Shown: one piece after another, positions 15,097 to 23,696 of the stretch
Layout: each line of letters starts with the position of its first letter
Numbering within the stretch: position 1 is the first letter of the stretch
Source of the DNA: Blautia sp. Marseille-P3201T
GTDB lineage: Bacteria > Bacillota > Clostridia > Lachnospirales > Lachnospiraceae
Assembly: GCF_900120295.1 (NCBI RefSeq)
Contig: NZ_LT635469.1
Coordinates: 248,001 to 312,000 of the forward strand
Direction of reading: 5' to 3'
Length of the DNA stretch: 64,000 bases
Notes under the pieces: model-generated
What the model was told of the DNA's origin: nothing
The model's input: only the letters and a program-made list of their open reading frames with translations
The model's database searches: none
Translations under genes and position numbers: made by a program

Positions 15097-15172
15097 CAAA
15101 TATATAAAGAAAAGATAAAATCTGAAAAAAACATGAAATCCTGAAGAAATTGATGACGAAGGGAAAAAATAT

Positions 15173-15500
15173 GGTATAATAATTGCACGATGTGCAATTT
15201 AAGCCGATTTCATCGGCTTACTGCCGTATGGCAGATTATACCGGCAAGCCACAACTTGTCGAGAAAATGCTCTGACGAGCGCTTCCTCGCCTGCGTATGT
15301 GGTATAATAATTGCACGATGTGCAATTCAAGCCAATAAAATTGGCTTGCCGCCACAAGGGTGTCGGATTATACCGGCAAGCCACGGCTTGAAAAGTAAAT
15401 ACTTTAGAGGGTGCTTCCTTTTCTGCGCACGTGGTATAATAATTGCATAATGTGCAATTTAAGCTGGTTACATCAGTTTACGTCACAAGTGTAGAAACAA
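15173..15500 (+). repeat. three tandem structured repeats, period about 130 bp
   Basis: Units start with GGTATAAT at 15173, 15301 and 15433 (spacing 128 and 132). Unit 1 folds without linkers: GGTATAAT (15173-15180) pairs with ATTATACC (15235-15242), enclosing three hairpins: AATTGCAC/GTGCAATT, AAGCCGAT/ATCGGCTT and CTGCC/GGCAG. Unit 2 (15301-15374) keeps the closing helix and first hairpin, but the second is AAGCCAAT/ATTGGCTT and the third is different yet still paired. Unit 3 has hairpins one and two only and runs into the ribosome site of the next gene. Compensatory changes in hairpin two argue for selection on structure. Each GGTATAAT is also an extended -10 (TGGTATAAT). Confidence 0.8.
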
Positions 15501-15523
15501 ATGAAAATAAAAGGAGTTAGGAA

Positions 15524-17233
15524 ATGGCGAAACGAAGGAGGAGAAGACGACGGAGAAATCAATTAGTTCCAATATTGGTTGCGATGCTTCTGATTATACT
15601 CGTTGCTATTGCGGGTATTGTAACAGGTTTCATAAAAAAGTATACACCATCTGATGCAAAGATGGATTTGACAGATTATTATCATACAGATGAAGATGAA
15701 GTTGCTTTGATTTTACAAAATATGATCAGTGAAACAAAAGGAAAGATGGTAGATGGAAAAATTTATTTACCATATAGTGTCATAACAAAAGAGCTGGGTG
15801 GAAGATTTTACTGGGACAGTGAAACTGAAAAGGTACTGTATACTACAGCAACAGATACTCTGGAGATAAAACCGGAAGATACTTCATATACAATAGCGGG
15901 TCAGACAAAACAGCAGGATTATGTTATTGCAAAGAAGATTGGCGAAGAACTTTATATAGCTCTTGACTTTGCTGAAGAATATATGCCAATTCAGGGGGAA
16001 GTATACGAAAATCCAAATCGAGTTGTGTTATCCTATCAATGGGGCGAATGGAATATGGTGTCTGCGTCAAAAGATACTGAAGTCAGATATCAGGGCGGTA
16101 TAAAAAGCCCAATTCTTTCCGAAGTGAAAAAAGGTGACACAATGGTGCTGCTGGAAGAAATGGAAAATTGGTCCAGAGTCATGACGGCAGATGGCATTGA
16201 TGGTTATGTAGAAAAGAAAAGTCTGGAAAAACCTCAAGCTACAGAAGTATCTTATACTGGAAATTATAAGGAAGATTATAGTAGTCTTACAAGAGATTAT
16301 AAAATAAATCTGGCATGGCATCAGGTTACTTCTGAGGCGGCAAATGCCACATTAGGAGAAACTATTCAGAATATGACAGGAGTGAATGTAATTTCTCCTA
16401 CATGGTTTTCCATTACAGCTAATGAAGGAACAATTTCTTCTTTGGCAAGTGCAGATTATGTCAATGAAGCACATGATAAAGGTATGGAGGTCTGGGGCTT
16501 AATTGATAACTTTAATCCATCTGTCAGTACACTGGAAACTTTATCAACCAGAAGTTCCAGAGAACATATTATTCAAAAACTTTTAGAAGAAGCCAAAAGA
16601 GTAGGGCTTGATGGGATTAATGTGGACTTTGAAGCTCTCACAGAAGAGGAAGCACCGCATTTTATCCAATTTATAAGAGAACTGTCTGTTGTATGTAGAG
16701 CTAATAATCTGGTCTTATCTGTGGATAATCCTGTTCCTCAGTTTACAGGATTTTATAATAGAAAAGAACAGGGTATTGTAGCAGATTATGTTATAATTAT
16801 GGGATATGACGAACATACCACAGGTTCAGAAGAGGCAGGTTCTGTTGCATCATTACCTTTTGTAAAAGAGGGTATTGAAAAAACTTTACAGGAAGTACCA
16901 AAGGAAAAAGTGATTAATGGTATACCTTTTTATACCAGACTTTGGACAGAATCCAATAATGGAACTCTTTCCAGTGAGGTTATGACTATGAATCAAGCAA
17001 GTGAGTATGTACAGAATAATGGTATAGAAGTGTACTGGGAAAAAGCGACAGCCCAAAATTATGGTGAATTGCTTACGGACAATGGAACACAAAAAATATG
17101 GCTGGAAGATGAACAGTCAATTGAGGAAAAGATGAAACTGATTGAACAGTATGGACTGGCAGGTGTGGCTTCGTGGAAGTTGGGCTTTGAGAGAGCAGAT
17201 GTCTGGACTATAATCAGTGAATATTTACAGTAA
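15524..17233 (+). CDS. membrane-anchored SH3 / GH18 glycoside hydrolase
   Basis: 569 residues: an Arg-rich cytoplasmic tail (residues 4-11), TM helix at about 14-36, a stalk domain of the copper-amine-oxidase-like type (about 50-165), a bacterial SH3 domain (about 170-240; VRYQGGIKSPILSEVKKGD) and a C-terminal GH18 barrel. The catalytic strand reads DGINVDFE with E370 as the acid; Asn replaces the middle Asp of the classic DxxDxDxE, as in the YaaH/SleL spore-hydrolase branch. It probably cleaves peptidoglycan or a spore-cortex glycan outside the membrane. It is immediately downstream of the tandem structured repeats and 23 bases before a DivIVA-like gene. Confidence 0.85.
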   Translation: MAKRRRRRRRRNQLVPILVAMLLIILVAIAGIVTGFIKKYTPSDAKMDLTDYYHTDEDEVALILQNMISETKGKMVDGKIYLPYSVITKELGGRFYWDSETEKVLYTTATDTLEIKPEDTSYTIAGQTKQQDYVIAKKIGEELYIALDFAEEYMPIQGEVYENPNRVVLSYQWGEWNMVSASKDTEVRYQGGIKSPILSEVKKGDTMVLLEEMENWSRVMTADGIDGYVEKKSLEKPQATEVSYTGNYKEDYSSLTRDYKINLAWHQVTSEAANATLGETIQNMTGVNVISPTWFSITANEGTISSLASADYVNEAHDKGMEVWGLIDNFNPSVSTLETLSTRSSREHIIQKLLEEAKRVGLDGINVDFEALTEEEAPHFIQFIRELSVVCRANNLVLSVDNPVPQFTGFYNRKEQGIVADYVIIMGYDEHTTGSEEAGSVASLPFVKEGIEKTLQEVPKEKVINGIPFYTRLWTESNNGTLSSEVMTMNQASEYVQNNGIEVYWEKATAQNYGELLTDNGTQKIWLEDEQSIEEKMKLIEQYGLAGVASWKLGFERADVWTIISEYLQ

Positions 17234-21726: not shown

Positions 21727-21987
21727 AAGTAAAATGACGAAGAAAAGGAATAGTATGCGAAAGGAACTCTAAAGAGAGAAAGCTGTATGGTGAGAAGCTT
21801 TTGTGGGAAATCGCAGAACCAGCCTTGGAGTTGCCTGTGATGAGCAGGACGTGGGCTTTGACGTTAAAAAAGCAAAGGAAGTGAGTAGTCCGGATAAAAA
21901 TGAATAAAATAGGACTGCTAATAAGGGTGGTACCGCCGGGTAAAAGACATCGGTCCCTAGGAGATAGGGGTTGTATGTCCTTTTTTT
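21727..21987 (+). promoter_or_regulatory. T-box leader, proline specific, with terminator
   Basis: The T-box sequence AAGGGTGGTACCGCCGGG is at 21923-21940; the terminator (GACAT...ATGTC with inner pairing and T7) is at 21945-21987. Stem I shows AGAGAG, GGTGAGAAG and GAA-CCA-GCCTTGGAG, placing CCA (21819-21821) as the specifier, a proline codon. This fits the downstream prolyl-tRNA synthetase: uncharged tRNA-Pro would favour the antiterminator. Unusually, about 270 bases including a dispersed palindrome separate the terminator from proS. Confidence 0.9.
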
Positions 21988-22256: not shown

Positions 22257-23696
22257 ATGGCAAATAACAAAAAACTGGTAGAAGCAATTACTTCTATGGA
22301 AGAAGATTTTGCGCAATGGTATACGGATGTAGTAAAAAAAGCAGATTTAATTGATTATACAAGTGTAAAGGGCTGTATGGTAATTAAACCGGCAGGTTAT
22401 GCAATATGGGAAAATATTCAGCATGAATTAGACAGAAGATTTAAGGAAACAGGTGTGGAAAATGTATATTTACCAATGTTTATTCCTGAAAGTCTTCTTC
22501 AGAAGGAAAAAGATCATGTAGAAGGTTTTGCTCCTGAAGTTGCATGGGTCACACATGGTGGACTGGAGCCGCTTCAGGAAAGACTTTGTGTGCGTCCTAC
22601 TTCTGAAACTTTATTCTGTGATTTCTATGCAAAAGAAATTCATTCTCACAGAGATTTACCAAAAGTATATAATCAGTGGTGTTCTGTTGTTCGCTGGGAA
22701 AAAACAACAAGACCATTCCTTCGTTCCAGAGAATTTTTATGGCAGGAAGGTCACACTGCACATGCAACAGCGGAAGAAGCAGAGGAAAGAACAATTCAGA
22801 TGTTAAATATCTATGCAGATTTCTGCGAGCAGGTGCTGGCAATGCCTGTTGTAAAAGGAAAGAAAACAGACAAAGAAAAATTTGCAGGAGCAGAGTCTAC
22901 TTACACAATCGAAGCTTTAATGCATGATGGAAAGGCATTACAGTCAGGAACAAGTCACAATTTTGGTGATGGATTTGCCAAAGCTTTTGGTATTCAGTAT
23001 ACAGACAAAGAAAACAAACTTCAGTACGTTCATCAGACGTCATGGGGAATGACAACACGTTTAATCGGCGCCATTATTATGGTTCACGGAGATAACAGCG
23101 GTCTGGTATTGCCACCTAGAATTGCTCCGGTACAGGCTGTTGTTATTCCAATTCAGCAGAAAAAAGAAGGAGTTCTGGATAACGCTTACAAACTGCAGGC
23201 ACAGTTAAAAGCAACAGGAATTCGCGTAAAAACAGATGATACAGATAAGAGTCCTGGATTTAAGTTTGCAGAGCAGGAAATGCGCGGTATTCCGGTTCGT
23301 ATTGAATGTGGACCAAAGGATATGGAAGCAAATCAGGCAGTTGTAGTAAGACGTGATACAAGAGAAAAAATTACAGTATCTCTTGACAATCTGGCAGAAG
23401 AAGTTCAGAAAATCCTGGATACTATGCAGGTGGAAATGTTGGAAAGAGCAAGAGCGCACAGGGAAGCTCATACTTATACAGCAACAGATTACGAAGAATT
23501 TAAGTCTATTGTAGAGGAAAAACCGGGATTTGTAAAAGCAATGTGGTGTGGCTGCAAAGAGTGCGAAGACAAAATCAAAGAAGATGTTCAGGCTACATCC
23601 AGATGTATGCCATTTGAACAGGAAAATCTTTCAGATAAGTGCGTTGTCTGCGGAAAACCGGCTAAGAAAATGGTTTATTGGGGGCGTGCATACTAA
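22257..23696 (+). CDS. proS: prolyl-tRNA synthetase, archaeal/eukaryote-like type
   Basis: 479 residues. Class II motifs: [12 protein letters not shown], the motif-2 region [25 protein letters not shown], and motif 3 near [19 protein letters not shown]. The anticodon domain follows, and the C-terminus carries a Cys4-type zinc site (CGCKEC and CVVCGKP) ending in WGRAY, the signature of the short ProS type that lacks the bacterial editing insertion. It charges tRNA-Pro. Expression should respond to tRNA-Pro charging through the upstream T-box. Confidence 0.95.

Follow-up and report, generated by a model that had tools for sequence, protein, structure and literature searches.

The DNA upstream of a glycosyl hydrolase family 18 (GH18) gene in the window, by which we mean the whole stretch of 64,000 nucleotides analysed here, most probably carries one locus of a dispersed, non-coding and non-autonomous structured DNA repeat of Lachnospiraceae that is placed 3′ of −10 boxes. 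Its copies, some of them truncated, are oriented like the promoter and occur alone or as tandem repeats. As far as sequence comparison can tell, the best reading is a new family of structured DNA repeats at −10 boxes that would leave the promoter preserved, and not a dedicated riboregulator.

Repeat units upstream of the GH18 gene

The original prediction had proposed three units of about 130 bp at this locus. We find two full units and a partial third within positions 15173-15480, with a direct-repeat spacing of 128 and 132; the third unit lacks the closing strand. The full units share one plan: GGTATAAT, three abutting hairpins, ATTATACC (the complement of GGTATAAT), a long hairpin (hairpin II) and then, usually, GTGGTATAAT. 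As had been claimed, every unit has an extended −10 box: GGTATAAT starts at exactly 15173, 15301 and 15433, and it thereby flanks each full unit on both sides. All parts of this locus lie on the plus strand. In unit 1, the four-way junction spans 15173-15242 (70 nt), with ATTATACC at 15235-15242 and hairpins of 19, 21 and 14 nt at 15181-15199, 15200-15220 and 15221-15234; hairpin II, carrying an AAATG...CGCTT motif, follows at about 15248-15303, its 3′ foot GTGG lying within the next extended −10. The junction of unit 2 (15301-15374, 74 nt) runs from GGTATAAT at 15301-15308 to ATTATACC at 15367-15374 and is followed by a hairpin II at about 15380-15434, whose 3′ foot likewise overlaps the following extended −10. 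Unit 3 (15433-15480) retains only the extended −10 (15433-15440), hairpin 1 (15441-15459) and hairpin 2 (15460-15480).

In units 1 and 2, a closed stem surrounds the three hairpins with zero unpaired bases between helices, and hairpin 3 of unit 2 contains one internal mismatch. The predicted sizes and coordinates of both junctions were right, and their folds beat shuffled sequences: z was −6.8 for unit 1 (15171-15243) and −5.6 for unit 2 (15300-15375) when folded as RNA, and −8.8 and −8.0 when the plus strand was folded as DNA, with 0 of 200 shuffles folding equally well in each case. The base changes reported in hairpin 2 between units are present as well, the third including two G.T wobbles. 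The fold of unit 3 does not stand out (z −0.7, with 41 of 200 shuffles folding equally well), and hairpin II folded alone is weakly better than shuffles (z −2.0 in unit 1, −1.1 in unit 2). The conserved hairpin II in each full unit had escaped the original prediction, as had the dispersal of the family in the genome.

The gene at 15524-17233 (plus strand) contains the PF00704 domain of GH18 as well as SH3_3 and Cu_amine_oxidN1 domains, in a scan that covered this gene, its neighbours and locus L203 (see below). Its predicted native promoter (15150-15180, plus strand) consists of a −35-like TTGATG and an extended −10 reading TATGG TATAAT. Elsewhere in the window, a T-box leader (RF00230, 101.9 bits) lies at 21731-21961, upstream of an ORF at 22257 that appears, by reading of its translation, to encode prolyl-tRNA synthetase.

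The view that the structure has no named family was borne out by Rfam, which gave no match at gathering score in the region and none up to E 1 in 15100-15560. Nine related loci gave one sub-threshold U7 match (L154), which we take as chance, and a known Rfam family was accordingly rejected. A tRNA-like element was also rejected: the tRNA model does not match the repeat, and tRNA predictions in the window fall only at 41.6-41.8 kb and 46.9 kb. Passages of two structured-RNA surveys (PMC2864571, PMC8632094) do not name the repeat.

Distribution, position and turnover

Searching with unit 1 gave 20 blastn matches in its own genome at E values up to 1. Grouped by hand with covariance-model matches, these form 11 loci with units of about 130 nt: C4:41747, C5:58597, C5:85452, C8:244715, C9:233516, C9:263173 (the present locus), C9:607892, C10:307063, C10:380057, C10:576115 and C10:738428. 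A further site, C8:271574, may be a remnant of the repeat. Across species, blastn found the repeat in 5 of 61 genomes, its own included, all within the genus, and in 0 of 41 outside it. A covariance model built from 19 units, the kind of search that the original prediction had suggested, detected homologues beyond the locus at all three levels: in this genome, in 5 of 20 genus genomes and in at least 9 of 299 family genomes drawn from 298 genera (own genome included in both counts), the last a lower bound because the family search used stricter filters than the genus search. An exact pattern occurs in 15 stretches of GTDB contigs, from Eubacterium sp. UBA3279 (5), Dorea phocaeensis (4), Blautia hansenii (2) and, with one each, Ca. 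Blautia stercoravium, Claveliimonas bilis, [Ruminococcus] torques and Mediterraneibacter agrestimuris; membership of Lachnospiraceae was checked for three of these seven carriers, and the remaining four presumably belong there too. A phage or plasmid origin was rejected, there being no phage or plasmid match to the repeat and the exact pattern turning up in 0 viral contigs.

Some matches are more remote. Three loci from other genera (L100, L101, L102) look like distant relatives with very different junctions, yet they share the AAATG...CGCTT hairpin II, after which further palindromic stretches follow. Two weak model matches (L148, L153), at an orthologous site in the window's own genome (G000) and in its congener G008, resemble the end of hairpin II in their right part and are possible old remnants.

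Where do the copies sit? At 61 of 62 loci the next gene, by an ORF-length rule, begins at the repeat's right end; these loci were hand-chosen among those retrieved, orthologues included, and are thus not independent. The sole exception, L040, has about 300 bases of sequence available on the right. An outward gene start is present on the left at 20 of 56 loci; by side, gene starts are found on the right only at 35, on the left only at 0, on both at 20 and on neither at 1. Start codons follow shortly after the right end, and the downstream genes, by reading of their translations, look unrelated to one another. Over 48 loci, likeness to a −35 box 16-18 nt left of the first −10 averages 3.38 of 6 positions versus 2.56 in shuffled sequence, and TG precedes the first −10 in 43.

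Four loci could be compared between filled and empty relatives (polA, AI-2E transporter and other gene names are readings of translations). At all four, the native −10 stands at constant spacing in filled and empty genomes alike, and the repeat begins directly after it. At the GH18 locus, ATGACG and TATAAT are 16 nt apart in 18 of 19 listed genomes; in G008 one changed base made the pattern miss, and the spacing is the same by eye. The polA spacing is 13 nt in 12 of 12 genomes, 8 of 20 matches having been left out of the table since another gene abuts polA. At the AI-2E-like transporter it is 17 nt in 11 of 12 (the pattern gave 19 for G007), and at the gene of locus L003 it is 22 nt in 14 of 16 and, by eye, 21 in the two filled genomes, G000 and G008, for which the pattern took an earlier anchor (32); 16 of the 18 genomes with this gene are tabled. 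The −10 patterns accepted TATACT at the AI-2E-like locus and also TATTCT at the L003 gene. Selection for harmless sites could explain part of this position rule; it fits the coincidence with the −10 at four loci less easily.

Presence and copy number of the repeat differ between close species. One orthologous locus has two units in G000 (L005), one in G008 (L026) and a decayed copy in G003 (L023). At the GH18 locus, G003 has a bare promoter, most other congeners read TATGCTATAAT, and G008 has an apparent remnant of hairpin 1. At both the GH18 and the L003 gene, outgroups read GCTATAAT at the position of GGTATAAT in G003, and the empty sites of G003 may therefore be products of deletion rather than ancestral.

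Other inserts occur at comparable positions. The polA promoter of G008 holds a different structured insert between two copies of GTGGTATAAT (L048:1897-1983, minus strand; L160); the same genome has a further copy of this insert at another site, with 88% identity. A third kind follows directly after TATAAT at L154:326-540 and L028:1641-1800, the L154 insert having a hairpin II that resembles that of the main repeat; the L003 gene of G008 bears this third type, again with a similar hairpin II. Distinct inserts at polA and the L003 gene in one genome indicate that different cassettes use the same slot.

Conserved structure and competing explanations

Covariation extends well beyond the units of the window; since homologues also exist elsewhere, two of the three refuting conditions set by the original prediction did not hold. 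Across the 19 aligned units, compensated changes occur in 22 of 50 pairs, and 97.6% of cells are paired; doubly changed cells number 66, whereas shuffles average 17.6 and no slid control exceeds 11. Further pair types do not exceed shuffles (33 versus 31.2; 120 of 500). The closing helix is invariant in 19 of 19 units, and so is a U.G mismatch within a stem at columns 104/120, next to a conserved A opposite C. For a wider set of junctions, 50 units were chosen and two dropped since their closing strand was unrecognised. Among the resulting 48 (45 distinct), 44 pass from helix to helix without an unpaired base, at least 3 prefer a different minimum-energy fold (the second unit of L003, L027, L031), and hairpins 1, 2 and 3 occur with 21, 23 and 22 distinct arm strings, some differing in length only. 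Of 46 chosen copies of hairpin II, 38 retain the motif AAAT[GA]...[CT]GCTT, and the foot varies as a pair (CCAC/GTGG, CTCC/GGAG, CTAC/GTAG). The right end equals GTGGTATAAT in 27 of the 46. Related loci are not independent, and hence these counts overstate the number of events.

How might such a unit spread? It would do so by DNA-level copying into or next to −10 boxes, probably via a folded single strand. The gene would survive, with its native promoter staying on the left and the element supplying another −10 on the right, while effects on expression through a duplicated promoter or a structured leader are probably side effects. The internal ATTATACC, complementary to both the left and the right GGTATAAT, might help to choose the site, although this is a guess and L117 and L150, both short copies, are without it. 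Several observations count against spread by copying: no new insertion was seen directly, the empty sites in G003 may stem from deletion, and the search for a mobilising gene gave no Y1 transposase (Y1_Tnp) match in G000, G003 or G013, which also weakens the guide role proposed for ATTATACC.

Y1 matches occur in 6 of 11 carriers and in 2 of 6 genomes without the repeat, and there is no clear link between the two. A resident IS200-type partner was rejected, none being found in G000, and GGTATAAT being missing from the three Y1 loci in G008 and G004. In G187 and G338, Y1 transposase-like genes (L203:860-1804, from Pfam; L204:808-1623, minus strand, from the genome search) are, by eye, flanked by other long palindromes and not by the main repeat; we take them to be possibly RAYT-like.

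A bolder version holds that the repeat is a mobile element targeted to core promoters, in which ATTATACC of the folded strand would pair with GGTATAAT, insertion would occur directly behind the extended −10, perhaps where the transcription bubble has melted the DNA, and pairing of ATTATACC with the right-hand GGTATAAT would serve release. Targeting and promoter preservation would then be a single mechanism, and the polA and L154 cassettes would share the route. We regard it as doubtful, the copies lacking ATTATACC and the missing Y1 transposase again weighing against it.

Alternatively, the units could form a selected promoter array, with tandem extended −10 boxes raising or varying expression and folding being secondary. 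The extended −10 in each unit, the predicted native promoter on the left, the nearness of the right end to start codons and the frequency of GTGGTATAAT there would all suit such an array. Promoters, however, do not need hairpin covariation; in five copies (L097, L113, L128, L138, L141) a paired change in the foot of hairpin II removes the TG of the extended −10, and TATAAT is lost at the right ends of L005 and L021. From the sequences at hand, we judge this explanation unlikely.

Less probable again is a cis-regulatory RNA, with the four-way junction as a structured 5′ leader controlling the downstream gene. Strong covariation and a location directly upstream of genes would be expected of it. 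A pair held at the RNA level tolerates G.U and not A.C, whereas a pair held in DNA treats both alike. Counted strand-symmetrically over the 48 junctions, departures are equal (24 G.U versus 27 A.C), and neither strand folds better than the other (means −33.2 and −33.5, p 0.48). This equality makes selection on the transcript less likely and favours either DNA-level structure or a mutational process that perfects palindromes. On RNA minimum-energy folds, G.U exceeds single A.C mismatches (22 versus 4), a result that, like the lack of an excess of further pair types, goes against our preferred DNA-level reading; such folds keep G.U and open A.C, so this count favours G.U by design. The symmetric count carries more weight, and a transcript-strand preference is not supported. 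Nor do the unrelated downstream genes, the variable presence among congeners and the lack of an Rfam match favour a regulatory RNA, and transcription from a unit's own −10, starting about 7 nt after it at textbook spacing, would lose the 5′ arm of hairpin 1. The original prediction had named an RNA regulator, a promoter array and a DNA repeat as options; of these, the DNA repeat is best supported, the array would still fit the sequence, and the regulator is disfavoured by the equality of G.U and A.C and by the unrelated genes.

The same symmetry, together with hairpin sequences that vary freely, would also arise in an old inert repeat if a mutational process perfected its inverted repeats and structure itself were not selected. 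The abutting-helix architecture shared across genera, the retention of the hairpin II motif and the strict position and orientation make this very improbable. Finally, dyads beside the −10 might be operators bound by a transcription factor, as the hairpin 1 dyad TTGCAC...GTGCAA immediately 3′ of the −10 could suggest, but a sequence-specific factor would not allow so many different arm strings, and we give this idea next to no credence.

Relation to known repeats and mobile elements

Small dispersed repeats are common. To our knowledge, it is unusual for a repeat to lie base-precisely behind a −10 box, to form an abutting four-way junction and to end in a copy of the promoter core; among open-access papers, searched with narrow wording, we found none on interspersed repeats of Blautia or Lachnospiraceae. 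If confirmed, the structured DNA repeat would represent a natural means of insertion into promoters that spares the gene, and it would provide gut bacteria with tandem promoters and leaders. The case is also a warning that covariation by itself is no proof of a regulatory RNA.

None of the tested definitions of known classes fits the repeat fully. Like a MITE, it is short, non-coding, dispersed and non-autonomous; terminal inverted repeats of the MITE kind were not found, the outer ends being direct copies of GGTATAAT and the inverted ATTATACC being internal. TATAAT is present on both sides and can be read either as target or as element sequence.

BOX elements of Streptococcus pneumoniae are described, in passages of PMC3049150, as short, modular, dispersed structured repeats of variable module number that are thought to be parasitic. 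The present repeat, compared by description, is likewise short, modular, dispersed and structured and resides in a Gram-positive genome, but BOX elements have terminal inverted repeats and target duplications where we see direct GGTATAAT ends and a −10 box as the site. Correia repeat enclosed elements of Neisseria, judging from parts of PMC2649163 and the review PMC10969869, are mobile, gene-proximal, promoter-carrying and hairpin-forming. Here, too, hairpin-forming repeats lie near genes and carry predicted promoters; Correia elements, however, carry terminal repeats in inverted orientation and supply promoters from their ends, whereas the left border here is formed by the native −10, and the unit of four-way junction plus hairpin sets the repeat apart from them. 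With REP/BIME sequences and their TnpA-REP (PMC8266576, in part), the repeat shares palindromes with conserved stem mismatches. IS200/IS605 elements, according to passages of the same source, choose their site by pairing a DNA guide with the complementary cleavage site, and the complementarity of ATTATACC to both flanking GGTATAAT copies might, as a guess, be guide-like in the same way. In REP and IS605 systems (PMC8266576, in part), a tetranucleotide guide stands 5′ of the palindrome, whereas the complement here is internal and 8 nt long, the unit is far larger than a REP, and its genome gave no Y1 transposase match. By analogy, BOX and Correia elements thus appear closest to the repeat in life style, and REP/BIME and IS200/IS605 closest in structure.
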